Shown: piece by piece, positions 5,775 to 57,233 of the stretch
Position numbering within the stretch: the first letter of the stretch is position 1
Layout: every line of letters starts with the position of its first letter
NCBI RefSeq assembly: GCF_000763295.1
Contig: NZ_JRJE01000032.1
Location: 310,001-374,000 of the forward strand
Direction of reading: 5' to 3'
Origin: Thalassospira australica
GTDB lineage: Bacteria; Pseudomonadota; Alphaproteobacteria; Rhodospirillales; Thalassospiraceae
DNA: 64,000 nt
Translations under genes and position numbers: made by a program
The notes under the pieces: model-generated
Seen by the model: the letters and a program-made list of their open reading frames with translations, nothing else
Database searches by the model: none
What the model was told of the DNA's origin: nothing

Positions 5775-6725
5775 TTATTGCAGCCCTTCAAACAGTGCGG
5801 TCGACAGATAGCGTTCCGCAAAGCTCGGAATAATCACGACAATGCGTTTGCCTGCATTTTCCGGCTTCTGGCCAAGCTCAATGCCTGCTGCAACTGCGGC
5901 ACCAGACGAAATCCCGGTCGGAAGGCCTTCGATGGCCGCCAGTTTGCGCGCAGTGGCAAAGGCGGTTTCATTGCCAATCGTCATGACCGTATCAATCACA
6001 TCGGTATTAAGATTGCCCGGAATGAAGCCGGCACCAATGCCCTGAATTTTATGCGGGCCGGGCGCACCACCGGAAATGACCGGGCTGTCTTCGGGCTCGA
6101 CCGCGACGATCTGAACGTTCGGGTTATGCTTTTTAAGCACTTCACCAACACCGGTCAGAGTACCGCCGGTACCCACACCCGATACAAAGATATCGATCTC
6201 GCCTGCGGTATCCTTGATGATTTCTTCAGCCGTGGTGTTGCGGTGTACTTCGGGGTTTGCCGGATTGTCGAATTGCTGAAGCATGATTGCCCCATCAATT
6301 TCAGACACCAGTTCTTCAGCGCGGGCAACCGCACCCTTCATACCCTTGGCCGCTGGCGTCAGGTCGATCTGCGCGCCAAGAAGCATCAACATCTTGCGGC
6401 GTTCCAGTGACATGCTTTCAGGCATGGTCAGGATCAGCTTGTAGCCCTTTGCCGCTGCAACAAAGGCCAGCGCAATACCGGTATTGCCAGACGTCGGCTC
6501 AACCAGTGTCGCGCCCGGTTTGATCTTGCCGGATTTCTCGGCATTTTCGATCATCGCAAGGCCAATACGGTCCTTGACCGAAGCCAGTGGATTGAAAAAT
6601 TCAAGCTTGCCGATCAGATCGGCTTTCACACCTTCGGCCTCAGCCAAACGTGAAAGGCGTACAAGCGGCGTACCGCCAATGGTGTCGATAATGCTGTCGT
6701 AAATCTTGCCGCGAAACTCAGTCAT
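5775..6725 (-). CDS. cysK: Cysteine synthase A (O-acetylserine sulfhydrylase)
   Basis: 316-residue PLP enzyme making cysteine from O-acetylserine and sulfide. The PLP lysine is in [15 protein letters not shown], the substrate loop is [19 protein letters not shown], and the phosphate-binding loop is [13 protein letters not shown]. Length matches the family. ATG 6725 is chosen because AGGAAAAC lies just upstream; a start at 6773 would add an atypical 16-residue extension. A strong terminator follows. An Rrf2-family regulator lies upstream on the same strand, recalling CymR control of cysteine genes in Firmicutes. Confidence 0.96.
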
Positions 6726-6929
6726 GTTTTCCTCGCACGTTTCTGTATTTTTGCCTTCAAGCACATCTTTCACATGTATTTATATCGCTATTCATCCAGG
6801 TCAAATGGATTGAAGGATATTTTACATATCTGGCACCCGAACAGCTTTCCTGAATCTTGTAATTTCACTTTCTATAGCAGCAATTTCTTGTTGAATGACG
6901 ATACAACAATCCATCACGTGCCCAGAAGA

Positions 6930-7385
6930 CTAAATGATGAAATCCGGGGATTCTTCGATCCCGCTGCGCAGGCCCGCATCACGGGCCCGATTACACAGGT
7001 CTTCGACCGTAATTTTGCCAAGTTGCTTGATCATTTCATCCTGCAGTTCCCGCCACAGCGGGCGGACAACTTCCTTGCCAAGCGGGGAGCCCGCCGGATC
7101 TTCGATCGGGTCATCGGATGTTTCCATTGCCCGGATCACCGATACGATATCGGCAAGCGTGATGCGACGACGTTCGCGCGCCAGTCGATACCCGCCGCGC
7201 GGACCGCGGACACCAACAAGAATGTCGGCCCGAACCAACTGCTGCAGGGTCTGTTCCAGATAGCGTTTCGGAATGCCCTGACGCGCCGTGATATCGCGGC
7301 TTTGAACCGGCTCACCTGCAGCGTTATAGGCAATATCCACGACCGCCTCGATCGCAAACAACATCTTTTTAGAAAGCTTTAGCAT
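6930..7385 (-). CDS. Rrf2-family transcriptional regulator (CymR-like, no Fe-S cysteines)
   Basis: 151-residue Rrf2 winged-helix protein. It begins MLKLSKKMLFAIEAVVDIAY, followed by the recognition helix region IPKRYLEQTLQQLVRADIL and the wing VRGPRGGYRLAR. IscR, RirA and NsrR carry three conserved cysteines for an iron-sulfur cluster; here only one cysteine is present (EDLCNRA), so it is unlikely to bind such a cluster. That, and its place upstream of cysK, resembles the cysteine regulator CymR. ATG 7385 matches the usual family start; ATG 7418 and GTG 7433 would lengthen the N terminus. Confidence 0.87.
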   Translation of the reverse strand: MLKLSKKMLFAIEAVVDIAYNAAGEPVQSRDITARQGIPKRYLEQTLQQLVRADILVGVRGPRGGYRLARERRRITLADIVSVIRAMETSDDPIEDPAGSPLGKEVVRPLWRELQDEMIKQLGKITVEDLCNRARDAGLRSGIEESPDFII

Positions 7386-7479
7386 CGTTTCACTTAACTC
7401 CCCTTGCGGTTCTGCCATCCCCCCAGATGACACAACCAGACAACGTCAAACCTGATTAACCAGCACACAATCGCCGCAG

Positions 7480-7944
7480 CTATTTTGCCGGGCTGGCTGT
7501 TCCGGTCGATCCAAAACCACCCGCACCACGCGCGGTTTCATCCAGATCCGCGGCCACATTCCATGTCACCTGCGTTACCGGTGCGACGACCAGTTGGGCA
7601 ATACGCATGCCGCGTTCAATCTCAAATGCGTCTTGCCCGTGATTGATCAGGATGACTTTGATCTCGCCGCGATAATCGGCATCAATCGTGCCCGGACTAT
7701 TGAGCACCGTGACACCATTTTTTGCCGCCAAGCCCGAACGCGGGCGCACCTGCGCTTCAAACCCTGTGGGAAGAGCAATGGCAATACCGGTCTCAACCAT
7801 GGCATGCTTGCCCGGTTCCAGAACCAGTTTCCCGTCAATTGCTGCCTGCAAATCAACCGCAGCAGACTGCGCTGTTGCATATTCCGGCAGCGGCAAATCC
7901 GCCCCGTGGGGAAGCTGTTTCAAATCAACGCTTAAAAGCGACAT
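7480..7944 (-). CDS. dut: dUTP diphosphatase
   Basis: 154-residue trimeric dUTPase that hydrolyses dUTP to dUMP and pyrophosphate, keeping uracil out of DNA and feeding thymidylate synthesis. The five family motifs are present, including [19 protein letters not shown] with the catalytic loop, [11 protein letters not shown], and the flexible C-terminal glycine-rich motif [11 protein letters not shown]. Length is typical. It lies 70 bases downstream of coaBC on the same strand, a pairing common in proteobacteria (coaBC-dut). Confidence 0.97.
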
Positions 7945-8014
7945 CGTCCATCCTTGTATCTTTCCCGGCCAGCAGCCGGTCTTGGTCTTTGTCTGTCCTG
8001 TCAGGTTGTCCCCA

Positions 8015-9232
8015 TCAGGAAAAATGTTTGATGATGCGCGCGCTCAAAGCCCGGGCAACACCGGTTTTGCTTTGGCGTTCCCAACGCTCGTCACTATTCT
8101 CATCGTCACCTGAAATCAGGCAAATCTCGTTGTCATCCCCGCCAAAGGTGCCGGTTTCCGGGGCCACATCATTGGCAAGAATCCAGTCGCAGCCCTTACG
8201 CGCACGCTTGGCACGCGCATGATCGATGACATTTTCGGTTTCTGCCGCAAAACCAATCACAAGGCCCGGGCGTGTCGGTCCAGCTTTGGAAATCGTTGCC
8301 AGAATGTCCGGGTTCTCCGAAAGCTTAAGATCGGGAATTTCCCCTGATCGATCTTTTTTAAGCTTCTGTCCGGCTTCATCTGCGCTGCGCCAATCGGCAA
8401 CTGCGGCGGCACAAATGGCAATATCAGCCGGAAGAGCATCCTGAACGGATGCCAGCATTTCGCGTGCCGTTTCAACGCGCACAACCTTTACCCCGGCGGG
8501 ATCGGGCAGGGTAACAGGCCCACTCACCAAGGTCACAGCCGCACCGGCATCTGACAACGCCTCGGCAATTGCATGGCCCTGCTTTCCCGAGGACCGATTG
8601 GCGATATAACGTACCGGGTCAATCGGCTCATGGGTCGGGCCGCTGGTAACAACAGCTGTTTTACCCGCAAGCGGCTTGGGCGCGTTTTGTGCCTCAAGGA
8701 AATCAAGCACGCTTGCGATGATCTCAGCCGGTTCTGCCAAACGCCCCGATCCGACTTCGCCACAGGCCAGATCACCCGCCGACGGCCCAACCCGGATCAC
8801 GCCCCGGCTTTCAAGGGTTGCGATATTGGCCTGTGTTGCCGGGTGGTTCCACATTTCGACGTTCATCGCCGGGGCAATCATCACCGGCTTGTCGGTCGCA
8901 AGCAGGGCGGTTGTCGCCAGATCACCGGCCTGTCCTGTGGCCATTTTGGCCAGAATATCGGCACTTGCAGGTGCGACCAGAACAAGATCCGCCTCCCGCG
9001 ACAGCCGGATATGGCCCATTTCGGCTTCGTCGGTCAGTGAAAACAGGTCCTGATAGACCTTGTTTTCGGTCAGTGCGGAAACAGAAAGCGGCGTCACGAA
9101 CTGCGCACCGCCCTTGGTCAGGATGGCGCGAATGTTAAAATCACGATCACGAAGCCGGCGGATCACCTCAAGAACCTTATAGGCAGCGATGCCGCCCGAG
9201 ATGATCAGAAGGATATTTGGTCCTGTTGGCAC
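8015..9232 (-). CDS. coaBC: Bifunctional phosphopantothenoylcysteine decarboxylase/synthetase
   Basis: About 405 residues; two coenzyme A steps in one protein. The N-terminal CoaC flavoprotein domain shows [31 protein letters not shown] and the catalytic cysteine in [12 protein letters not shown]. The C-terminal CoaB domain has [22 protein letters not shown] and couples cysteine to phosphopantothenate using CTP. The start is uncertain: GTG 9232 is four codons inside a TTG at 9244; both lie just before [13 protein letters not shown]. It is co-directional with dut downstream. Confidence 0.95.
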
Positions 9233-53852: not shown

Positions 53853-54057
53853 TTGGCTATCCTTCATGGCAGATCGCTTAAACGACCGGTTCCCGATAAA
53901 CCAGCCATCACCTCGTGGATCAACCCGTTCCGCTGCGGCCTATTTTGATCAAACAGGTCCAAAGCGCAACGCGTTTAACCCAATATACGCATTGAATTTT
54001 TCAATCGATTTGATTGATTTCAAAAATCACAAAATAAAATGCCGAAATTTCCGACAT

Positions 54058-55098
54058 TTATCCTTTGTAGTTGCGAATAAACTCAACCAGCTGACCAACA
54101 TGTTCCGGCGGTGTTTCCGGGGTAATGCCATGGCCAAGGTTAAAGATGAACGGCCCTTTGCCCAGGGTATCAAGAATGCGTTTGGTTTCATCAAACATCG
54201 CATCCCCGCCCGTGATCAGCAGCATCGGATCCAGATTGCCCTGCACGGGACCAAGCGGTTGAAGATTTTCGACGACCCAGTCGAGTTTAACCCCACTATC
54301 AAGGCCAACCGCAGTGACACCGGTTTTTTGTTTGAAATCCACCAGATGCAAACCGCATCCGCGCGGGAAGCCAATAATCGGCAGATCCGGGTGAACTGCA
54401 CGCAAATTGGCAACGATCTGTTTGGTCGGTTCAATCACCCAGCGATTAAACCCGGTTTCGGACAAAACCCCGCCCCAGGTTTCAAACAGCTGAATGCATT
54501 CTGCTCCCGCTTCAACCTGTTTGAGCAAGTACTGCGTGGTTGCCTCGATCACGATGTCGATCATCTGACCAAAGCCAACCGGATCGCCATAGGCAAAGCG
54601 ACGGATATTGGCAAAGTCCTTGGACCCTTTGCCCTCGACCATATAGGTCGCGACCGTCCAGGGTGCCCCGGCAAAACCGATCAGCGACGTATGGGCCGGA
54701 ATGGCACTTGAAAGCTTTGAAACCGTCTCATAGATCGGGCCAAGCGTGTCATGAATGCCTTCAATTGAAAGCTTGCCAAGGCCTGAAGCATCTCTGATGG
54801 CCTCAAGCTGTGGGCCTTCTCCCTGCTTGAAGGCCAAATGCTGTCCAAGTGCTTGTGGTATAACGAGGATGTCGGAGAACAATATTGCCGCATCGAAGTC
54901 ATAGCGCCTGAGCGGCTGCAACGTAACTTCGCAGGCAAGATCGGGATTATAGCAAAGATCAAGGAACGATCCGGCCTCGCCACGGGTTGCGCGGTATTCC
55001 GGCAGATATCGACCTGCTTGGCGCATCAGCCAGATTGGCGGAACAGAAAGGGTTTCGCCATTCAAGGCACGCAAGAAAGTCTTTGTAGGGTTGGGCAT
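54058..55098 (-). CDS. hemE: Uroporphyrinogen decarboxylase
   Basis: 346-residue enzyme that decarboxylates uroporphyrinogen III to coproporphyrinogen III. Features: [21 protein letters not shown] with the substrate-binding arginines, [40 protein letters not shown], and [20 protein letters not shown] near the end. AGGAAACCAA precedes the ATG. It is the first gene on the left side of the presumed replication origin, transcribed away from it, as in Caulobacter and Rickettsia. Confidence 0.98.
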
Positions 55099-55780
55099 TT
55101 GGTTTCCTGTTCGTCTGTCCCGATCGCATTATTGTCTGGTTCCGGGCTCTGACCCGAACGCTGGACCCAGTTTTGAAATCCCGTGAATTTTGTCCTGTGA
55201 CCTGTGCCAGGACGTTTTCCACGTTCTGCCTAACAAAACCTTATTTAATAAAAAAGGATGTTGTTTGTAGGTGGTTCCCTGTGGATAACAGGGATTAAAT
55301 TTAGTGCACAGCTTATTCACATTCCGACTCGGGAAAAATGATTCATCTCAATCCGACTTGGGGAAAACTGTGTACGACTCCGAACGACTCTCAGACTCTT
55401 CCTTGGGAAAAGCCGATTTTGAATAATGGGGATAAGGTGAATAAGTCTGGTTTTTGCCATGTTATCCCTGCTATTACGGGAAAAAATAATGACTTATCCC
55501 GGTCTGGATAGAGCCTTTGAGAAAGTTTGTATTAAGGGGAGGATAAATCCTGTGGAAAAAATCGGGTCGGAGTCGCTCCCGTTATCCACAATTATCCACA
55601 GGGCCGACTCCGTGCATCTAACTTTGGGTTGGGTCTATAAACCTTATCCATCCGGGTAGTGATCGAAATTTCGAACGGCCAAAAGGACGTTTGAAGAAAG
55701 TTTGAAAAATCGCTTGGTGCGCAAAAAGTGGATAAAAACCGCTTGCACTTGCAATATGTGGTCAATGAAACGGGCAGGGC
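55099..55780. other. Chromosomal replication origin (oriC)
   Basis: A 682-base gap between hemE and ppsR with no gene. Perfect DnaA boxes ttatccaca at 55582-55590 and 55592-55600, tgtggataa at 55280-55288, and near matches at 55313-55321 and 55727-55735. AT-rich stretch 55231-55267 could be the unwinding element. GGGAAAA repeats lie at 55331, 55361, 55405 and 55478. Seven GANTC sites lie within 55326-55610. The hemE-origin-ppsR order matches known alphaproteobacterial origins. No CtrA-type TTAA-N7-TTAA was seen. Confidence 0.88.
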
Positions 55781-56605
55781 ATGGTCGGAGAAGATAAAAT
55801 ATTCCATCTTCATCTGGTTTCGGACTCAACCGGCGAGACGGTTGACGGCATTGCCCGTGCCTGCATTGCGCAATTTCCCGATGTTCGGGCCCATGAACAT
55901 GTCTGGTCACTGATTCGCACCGATGCGCAGCTTGCCCGCGTATTGGCCGATATTGAACGCAATCCCGGTATTGTTCTTTACACCGTTTTTGACAGCAACA
56001 TTCGCCGCAAGCTTGAAGAAGGCTGCCGCAGGCTTCAGGTGCCCCATAGCCATGTGCTTGATAACACCATCACGATGATGGCCGGTTATCTTGGGCAACA
56101 ATCGCACGGCCGCACCGGTGCGCTTCATAAAATGGACGAAGAATATTTCAGCCGGATCGAGGCCATTGATTACACGCTTTCGCATGACGACGGGCAATCG
56201 GGCTGGGATCTGGAAGAAGCCGATGTTGTGATTGTCGGTGTTTCACGCACCTCAAAAACCCCGACCTCGGTCTATCTGGCCAATCGTGGGATCAAAACCG
56301 CCAATATTCCCTTTGTGCCGGGCTGTCCCTTGCCCCCGGAACTTGATCAGTTGAAAAACCCGATTGTGGTCGGTCTGATCAAGGATGTTGATCAGCTTGT
56401 TTCAATCCGTAAAAACCGTCTGCGCCAGATCGAACGCGGCGAGGGAGGCGATTACGTTGATCCGGTTGCGGTGCGCGATGAAGTCCATCAGGCGCGGCGT
56501 TACTTTACCGAACGCGGCTGGAAGATCATTAATGTGACCCGCCGTTCCATCGAAGAAACCGCGGCGATCATCTTATCAACCATGTATGACCGACGCGGAC
56601 ATTAA
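55781..56605 (+). CDS. ppsR: PEP synthase/PPDK regulatory kinase-phosphatase (DUF299)
   Basis: 274 residues. The P-loop-like GVSRTSKTPTSVYLANRG and the N-terminal FHLHLVSDSTGETVDGIARA are diagnostic of the DUF299 family, which uses ADP to phosphorylate a threonine of pyruvate phosphate dikinase or PEP synthetase and reverses this with phosphate. Which dikinase it controls is not visible. It is the first gene right of the presumed origin, running away from it. Maf follows after 28 bases. Confidence 0.96.
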   Translation: MVGEDKIFHLHLVSDSTGETVDGIARACIAQFPDVRAHEHVWSLIRTDAQLARVLADIERNPGIVLYTVFDSNIRRKLEEGCRRLQVPHSHVLDNTITMMAGYLGQQSHGRTGALHKMDEEYFSRIEAIDYTLSHDDGQSGWDLEEADVVIVGVSRTSKTPTSVYLANRGIKTANIPFVPGCPLPPELDQLKNPIVVGLIKDVDQLVSIRKNRLRQIERGEGGDYVDPVAVRDEVHQARRYFTERGWKIINVTRRSIEETAAIILSTMYDRRGH

Positions 56606-56633
56606 TCGTCCGTAAAACAGGATATCAAGACGC

Positions 56634-57233
56634 ATGACCCATCCCCTTATTCTGGCTTCAAGCAGCAAGGCCCGTCACATGATGCTGACAAATGCCGGTG
56701 TGACCTGCGAAGCTGTGGCCTCGATGATTGACGAGGATGGCTATAAACAGTCGATGAAGGCCGAAGGGGCCAATGCCGCCGAAGCCGCCGAAACCCTCGC
56801 GGAAATGAAGGCATTGCGCATGTATCGCCAACGTCCTGATGCCATCGTCATTGCAGCTGATCAGATGCTTGAATGCAATGGGGTGTGGTTTGACAAACCA
56901 ATGGACCGTGACAATACCCGGGCCCAGCTTCTCTCACTGCGCGGTAAAAGCCACAAGCTGGTTTCGGCCGCTGTTATATATAAAGAGGGCTCGCGCATTT
57001 GGGGCACGATTGATACCGCCCATCTGACCATGCGCAATTTTACCGAAGAATGGCTCGACTGGTATCTCGATGCTGCCGGTGAAGATATATATCACTGTGT
57101 CGGCGGCTATCAGCTTGAAGGACTTGGCGCGCAGCTGTTTACCGAAATACGTGGCGATTATTTCACGGTTCTTGGCATGCCGTTGTTGCCACTGATTGGC
57201 TTCTTGCGCGATCATGGCGTCCTGAAAGCGTAA
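56634..57233 (+). CDS. Maf-family nucleotide pyrophosphatase
   Basis: 199 residues. The Maf signature LILASSSKARHMMLTNAGV is at the N terminus, with AADQMLECNGVWFDKPMDR and HKLVSAAVIYKEG following. Maf proteins hydrolyse non-canonical or methylated nucleoside triphosphates and affect septum formation. This copy has an atypical QLSLRGKSH-like motif (AQLLSLRGKSHKL) with less conserved surroundings. It lies between ppsR and aroE; a palindromic repeat pair follows its stop. Confidence 0.94.
   Translation: MTHPLILASSSKARHMMLTNAGVTCEAVASMIDEDGYKQSMKAEGANAAEAAETLAEMKALRMYRQRPDAIVIAADQMLECNGVWFDKPMDRDNTRAQLLSLRGKSHKLVSAAVIYKEGSRIWGTIDTAHLTMRNFTEEWLDWYLDAAGEDIYHCVGGYQLEGLGAQLFTEIRGDYFTVLGMPLLPLIGFLRDHGVLKA

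Follow-up and report, generated by a model that had tools for sequence, protein, structure and literature searches.

Predicted chromosomal replication origin of Thalassospira between hemE and ppsR, with candidate weak DnaA boxes and a triplet repeat across alphaproteobacterial origins

Origins beside hemE and the Thalassospira locus

Low-affinity DnaA sites are well known from E. coli. Taylor et al. (2011) is reportedly the original paper on the W-box of Caulobacter, and Brassinga et al. (2002) are said to have described CtrA sites in the origin of Rickettsia prowazekii. The closest described counterpart of the locus treated here is Cori, the origin of Caulobacter crescentus, which has the same boundary genes, an AT-rich region and DnaA boxes (PMC1914354), GANTC sites (PMC3973325), and W-boxes, a class of very weak DnaA sites with the consensus TCCCCA (PMC4285127). 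The predicted origin of R. prowazekii likewise lies between hemE and a COG1806 gene (PMC1914354). A 2024 review describes the Caulobacter W-boxes and then states that no weak DnaA sites had been identified outside Caulobacter (PMC10797057). For DNA opening, the basal unwinding system (BUS) of Bacillus offers a comparison: its trios read 3'-GAT-5', which equals CTA on the strand running toward hemE (PMC8287927), and Asn187 of B. subtilis DnaA contacts the middle adenine, where thymine works poorly and cytosine is tolerated (PMC10721633). Universal conservation is claimed for none of those DnaA residues, and DnaA homologs are considered possible readers of various sequences (PMC10721633). Pelliciari et al. 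predicted a BUS for 1755 of the 2070 origins they analysed, among them origins of Proteobacteria (PMC8287927).

The window, by which we mean the whole 64-kb stretch analysed here, is C31:310001-374000 of a 4.26 Mb Thalassospira draft genome in 31 contigs, contig C31 being 788,206 bp long; coordinates below are window positions unless a contig is named. The gap that an earlier note on this DNA had marked as a probable origin was recovered with the same borders from the open reading frames, exactly 55099-55780 (682 bp). It is bounded on the left by hemE (54058-55098, minus strand, Pfam URO-D) and on the right by ppsR, a COG1806/DUF299 kinase-pyrophosphorylase gene (55781-56605, plus strand, Pfam PF03618). 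The gene order hemE-gap-ppsR-maf-aroE-coaE-dnaQ, also proposed in that note, was found with Pfam as URO-D, Kinase-PPPase, Maf, shikimate dehydrogenase, CoaE and an RNase_T exonuclease of the dnaQ type, with ferrochelatase on the far side of hemE. As a sequence-based prediction, the Thalassospira gap joins the origins between hemE and COG1806 described for Caulobacter and Rickettsia and is ordinary in kind. A full-text literature search, judged by titles only, returned no paper on a Thalassospira origin.

The likeness to Caulobacter asserted in the earlier note holds for the boundary genes and was over-read as regards CtrA; the note mentions neither the GANTC cluster nor the triplet element treated below. 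The CtrA site TTAA-N7-TTAA has no exact copy in the 64-kb window, and the best match in the gap has one mismatch; Caulobacter-like CtrA control was rejected on this ground, and the absence of an exact site also separates Thalassospira from R. prowazekii, compared here by description. Across the class, ten such sites were found in 9 of 76 hemE-ppsR gaps, against 2.0 expected from shuffles. The IHF consensus WATCAANNNNTTR has no exact match in the gap either, the best being one mismatch away. A further difference from Cori, going by its published description, concerns the strong sites, which are perfect TTATCCACA boxes in Thalassospira and TGATCCACA G-boxes in Cori.

Strong boxes, AT-rich element and position of the predicted origin

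Three perfect TTATCCACA boxes, as first reported, are present in the gap. One lies on the minus strand at 55280-55288 and faces the AT-rich element, and the other two are arranged head-to-tail on the plus strand, 1 bp apart, at 55582-55600 (55582-55590 and 55592-55600). A fourth box of the form TTATNCACA, namely TTATTCACA, stands at 55313-55321 (plus strand), so that all four TTATNCACA of the window fall inside the hemE-ppsR gap. Shuffling of the window gave a mean of 1.13 TTATNCACA and at least four in 3 of 100 shuffles, which means that the clustering of the boxes is unusual and their number is not; at the shuffle rate, the Poisson probability of at least four in 682 bases is about 9e-10. 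No TTATNCACA was found in 15 further 12-kb samples of C31, and genome-wide the perfect box TTATCCACA has 25 copies in 4.26 Mb, three of them in the gap and no two of the others within 1 kb. Near-matches (TTWTNCACA with at most one mismatch) are not enriched over the window as a whole (89 observed, 93.6 expected), and the gap accounts for 13 of these 89, in agreement with the several near-matches first noticed there. With a relaxed box pattern, the gap contains ten sites and any other 682-base stretch of the window at most three. The box cluster in the gap is thus denser than chance.

For conservation within the genus, the gap was taken from 29 Thalassospira genomes, the window's own included. 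A core at 55205-55610 stands out, in which 193 of 406 columns (48%) are invariant in all 29, against 6 of 106 and 4 of 170 columns in the two flanks (2–6%). The box facing the AT-rich element is TTATCCACA in 28 genomes and TTATTCACA in one, while the box at 55313 is TTATTCACA in 16 and TTATCCACA in 13; the spacing is 33 bp between the two in 29/29 and 269 bp to the following box in 28/29. In the head-to-tail pair, which was followed through the same 29 genomes, the first box is TTATNCACA in 28, and the second is TTATCCACA in 22, TTGTCCACA in four and TAATCCACA in three. Another DnaA box, TTTTCCACA at 55551-55559 (minus strand), is kept in 23/29.

The AT-rich element claimed at 55231-55267 proved real. 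When separate 30-bp places in the 64 kb are ranked by nearest-neighbour energy, 55230-55259 comes second among the weakest, and it is taken as the DNA-unwinding element (DUE) beside the boxes; the signal is clear at 30 bp and weaker at longer windows, where the element is outside the ten weakest places listed at 50 bp and seventh at 100 bp. At the edge of the DUE lies the longest invariant run of the gap, 18 columns at 55251-55268 that are identical in 29/29 genomes. This run is not a DnaA box; on the minus strand it reads ACAAACAACATCCTTTTT and is a putative counterpart of the DnaA-trio-like C(A/T)A triplet repeat of the class, described below. A hairpin, TCCCTGTGGATAACAGGGA, can be drawn at 55276-55294 around the DUE-facing box and is followed by an AT-rich tail. 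Its reading as a terminator was rejected, as it overlaps that box and such a pattern gave one match with 1.2 expected. A search for structured RNA in 54000-57000 returned a single match outside the gap, with an E value of 0.28 and below the family cut-off.

The position of the gap was further examined using GC skew and parS sites. Fifteen 12-kb samples of C31 outside the window were used, up to position 632,000 of 788,206, the last 156 kb being left out. Of the eight samples before the window, seven have negative skew, between -0.014 and -0.081, and the eighth has +0.007; the seven after it all have positive skew, between +0.014 and +0.076. The cumulative minimum of the window falls at 54678, which is within hemE and some 420 bp short of the gap, and just past the gap the skew is weak, with +0.005 to +0.027 in four 2-kb windows and then -0.003. 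In a one-contig relative (G012, 4,701,725 bp), sampled at 20 places, the hemE-ppsR gap lies at 0.31 Mb; the skew is negative in both samples before it, zero at 0.47 Mb, positive in seven of eight samples from 0.7–2.35 Mb and negative in eight of nine from 2.59 Mb on, which places one switch of sign close to the gap and the opposite one at 2.35-2.58 Mb, roughly half a chromosome away. The inflection that had been proposed as a check is therefore seen at the gap in both C31 and G012, within what samples and a draft genome can resolve.

Four exact parS sites occur in the genome, all on C31. Three lie at C31:386698-389101 (6698-9101 of locus L010), in mnmE-mnmG-rsmG-parA-parB, 21–23 kb from the gap, and the fourth lies on the other side at C31:239975, about 125 kb away. 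In six relatives assembled in one or two contigs, four from the genus and two from the order, parS was counted with up to one mismatch; 22 of the 24 sites are 1.8-19.5 kb from ppsR, and the remaining two, in G012 and G009, are near the far contig end. Proximity of parS is expected of an origin.

Two other explanations of the gap were weighed against this evidence. As it sits between two divergent gene starts, the gap could be the shared promoter and leader of hemE and ppsR, with the boxes serving DnaA to regulate these genes and replication starting elsewhere. Such a role accounts neither for the sign switch of the skew at the gap nor for the parS sites clustered near it. Moreover, the 406-bp core ends 106 and 170 bp from the genes and those flanks are poorly conserved, and a simple scan, which is weak evidence, detected no sigma-70-like promoter in 54900-55900; we regard this explanation as very improbable. 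Alternatively, the origin could lie beside dnaA or parAB, an arrangement found in many bacteria, with the gap serving as a DnaA-titration site; both loci are present on C31, and titration of DnaA is another role that a dense box cluster could have. However, neither the 3.5-kb dnaA locus, 182 kb from the gap, nor the 12-kb parAB stretch contains a TTATNCACA, which, as far as a draft genome can show, speaks against an origin at these genes, the outcome that the earlier note had named as contrary. The samples on either side of dnaA (+0.007 and -0.014) show no lasting sign change, and in Rhodospirillales the proximity of dnaA to ori is not a conserved feature (PMC8116508). A titration site with the origin elsewhere is the least probable of all the readings considered. 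The box cluster, the skew switch, the parS neighbourhood and the conservation all support the original proposal, and we predict with high confidence that the hemE-ppsR gap is the chromosomal replication origin (oriC) of Thalassospira.

Weak boxes and triplet repeats in the class

Between the strong boxes, the gap contains weak 9-mers that differ from TTATCCACA by an A->C change at position 7 or by the last bases. Two of them are predicted W-boxes with TCCCCA as in Cori: TTTTCCCCA at 55359-55367 (minus strand), kept in 28/29 Thalassospira genomes, and TTATCCCCA at 55427-55435, kept in 18/29. The latter is the middle one of three abutting 9-mers on the minus strand at 55418-55444, TTATTCACC, TTATCCCCA and TTATTCAAA. 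In the other genomes its place is taken by TTATCCACA (three genomes), TTATCCACG, TTATCCCCG and CTATCCCCA (two each), and TTATCCGCA and TTATTCACC (one each); a swap between W-box and perfect box is expected if DnaA reads both forms. Weak box-like sites on the plus strand are TTATCCCTG at 55462-55470, kept in 28/29, and TTATCCCGG at 55494-55502, whose last bases vary among relatives. Immediately upstream of the DUE-facing box, a W-box-like 9-mer, TAATCCCTG, abuts it at 55289-55297 (minus strand); it is degenerate, with TCCCTG rather than TCCCCA, and its counterparts in other gaps consist of ATCCCC followed by a second box-like 9-mer.

For the class, the DNA upstream of ppsR was surveyed in 80 genomes, 20 from the same order and 60 from other orders. 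At the order level outside the genus, 28 genomes had a ppsR match, from which 20 were picked by hand, one (L046) was added and seven were left out. At the class level, 193 genomes were searched and 136 had a match, the 57 without one being outside the survey; 60 of 134 (the 136 minus two already included) were chosen by hand down the ranking and spread over families. A divergent hemE adjoins ppsR in 76 of the 80 stretches. Three of the 76 gaps are long (L138, 1581 bp; L148, 1043 bp; L117, 887 bp), and the rest measure 276-718 bp. The added L046, which is not among the 76, has hemE and a 443-bp gap without TTATNCACA. One of the four other stretches is 429 bases long and lies at a contig end. 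In L159 (G217:C1:1-429), from a one-contig genome, the sequence starts 328 bases before ppsR and has three TTATNCACA there, and its numbering apparently starts inside the hemE-ppsR origin. In L164, L166 and L168, ppsR is present and hemE was not found by tblastn in 2.8 kb upstream; the origins of these genomes may be rearranged.

When all single substitutions of TTATCCACA were scanned in the 76 class gaps, the perfect box itself occurred 28 times (0.4 in shuffles, 0.0 in scaled upstream DNA) and TTATCCCCA 29 times (0.45 and 0.43, respectively), while every other substitution occurred at most 13 times. TTATCCCCA, a 9-mer form of the weak W-box of Caulobacter, is thus as common as the perfect box in these gaps. 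Both TTATNCACA and TTATCCCC(A/G) are present in 14 of the 76 gaps, TTATNCACA alone in 17, and TTATCCCC(A/G) alone in 21; the 24 remaining gaps lack both, although a looser box site is present in 21 of them. Relative to shuffles, the strict box forms show an enrichment of about 46- to 70-fold. Counting against an origin-only role, TTATCCCCA has 23 copies in the Thalassospira genome and only one of them is in the gap. These counts, which are strong, suggest that weak initiator-binding sites are shared by the origins of much of the class. Among the matches listed in a literature search for TTATCCCCA, no title concerns bacterial origins.

A second feature of the class concerns DNA opening, and here the triplet element is put forward as a hypothesis. 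In 70 of 77 gaps, the window included in the count, the AT peak is no more than 200 nt from hemE. Beside it, C(A/T)AC(A/T)AC was counted 73 times on the strand toward hemE and 6 times toward ppsR, with 6.4 per strand in shuffles. This is the largest strand difference of the 96 triplet types tried, and the second is C(C/T)A (56 vs 5), which means that C is also found at the middle base. The repeat is present in 41 of 77 gaps, the window not among them; 35 of the 76 class gaps are without it. When the gaps were anchored on ATCCC(C/T) near hemE, which is found in 58 of 77, such triplets or CTAC followed 14-56 nt beyond in 37 of the 58, and in many anchored gaps the triplets come after a second box-like 9-mer. 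In Thalassospira, the repeat is degenerate (CAAACAACATCC). At the hemE-ward gap end of L140 (G126), the triplet element is CCACCACCACCACC and DnaA has His where most alphaproteobacteria read have Tyr, possibly a third variant of the triplet code.

Like the Bacillus BUS, many alphaproteobacterial gaps combine a one-strand box-like pair with a trinucleotide repeat at the AT-rich edge. The published rule of Bacillus, however, is not followed closely. The triplets of the C(A/T)A runs are divided evenly between CTA and CAA (56:54), so that half of the triplets lack the middle adenine on the trio strand, where CAA gives T. The strict trio pattern, three times (C/T)T(A/T), was tried and rejected, as it is hardly enriched (38 toward hemE, 28 toward ppsR, 24 by shuffle). 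The BUS rule, which we applied to the window itself, asks for a DnaA box with no more than two mismatches and, not further than 16 nt from it, three or more NAN triplets, read as NTN on the strand of the box. A B. subtilis-type trio at the DUE-facing box was rejected, since three consecutive NTN triplets are absent within 16 nt and the first run starts 20 nt away. Runs of this kind do stand beside three other, imperfect boxes on the strand of the DUE-facing box and one on the other strand, away from the AT-rich element.

The DnaA residue at the position of Asn187 was read by alignment to the structure chain 8btg_A, whose numbering agrees with PMC10721633 and which was therefore treated as B. 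subtilis DnaA. Thalassospira DnaA has Tyr there. Among 55 readable distinct alphaproteobacterial genomes, our own included, the residue is aromatic in 49 (Tyr 44, Phe 4, Trp 1) and otherwise Asn (2), His (2), Ser (1) or Arg (1), one more genome being unreadable; in other classes of the phylum it is aromatic in 0 of 19 readable genomes (Thr 9, Ala 6, Asn 4; one unreadable). Because the DnaA loci were taken by best score, both samples are biased toward relatives of Thalassospira DnaA; 20 further alphaproteobacterial loci were chosen by hand. The aromatic residue and the triplet repeat are a correlation of two class-wide traits counted over genomes, and the five gaps looked at for a link between a non-aromatic DnaA residue and triplet type are too few for a verdict.

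Proposed initiation and its meaning

From these parts, initiation can be sketched. DnaA would first occupy the strong boxes at 55280 and 55313 and the pair at 55582/55592, and would then fill the weak TTATCCCCA-type boxes in between. A filament of DnaA-ATP could then grow from the 55280 box and its weak partner at 55289 toward hemE, onto one strand of 55251-55268; the AT-rich stretch 55230-55259 would open, the helicase would be loaded there, and two forks would depart in opposite directions. The least certain step is that a conserved cluster of GANTC sites may tie firing to CcrM methylation. The gap has 7 of these sites, compared with 74 in the 64 kb (Poisson about 2e-5). Two invariant CcrM-type sites, GAGTC and GACTC at 55570 and 55606 (55570-55610), flank the head-to-tail box pair in 29/29 genomes, and five further ones at 55326, 55340, 55376, 55386 and 55394 (55326-55398) are kept in 29, 20, 28, 28 and 16 of 29, respectively, so that five sites in all are kept in 28 or 29 genomes. 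The genome also encodes a CcrM-like methylase (N6_N4_Mtase plus RAMA) and GcrA. Across the class gaps, GANTC is mildly raised (223 vs 155 shuffled), and in Agrobacterium, CcrM levels affected ori2 and did not significantly affect the DnaA-dependent ori1 (PMC11514494). Given this mild excess and the behaviour of ori1, a methylation role in Thalassospira is a guess.

We also propose, tentatively and with more doubt than confidence, that Alphaproteobacteria may open their origin by a single-strand code of their own, in which a weak W-box abutting a DnaA box is followed by a C(A/T)A repeat. DnaA with the aromatic residue would be relaxed at the middle base or would read the opposite strand, with the constant A of (T/A)AC, and W-boxes would be a class-wide second DnaA site and not a Caulobacter invention. 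The strand counts suggest that an unusual DNA-opening sequence may be common to much of the Alphaproteobacteria.

In conclusion, a probable origin has been fixed for a marine genus, and weak boxes so far studied in Caulobacter are indicated across Alphaproteobacteria. The class-wide weak boxes and the candidate triplet element are the parts worth specialist attention. If the triplet element and the DnaA residue changed together, single-stranded origin recognition outside Bacillus would become testable.
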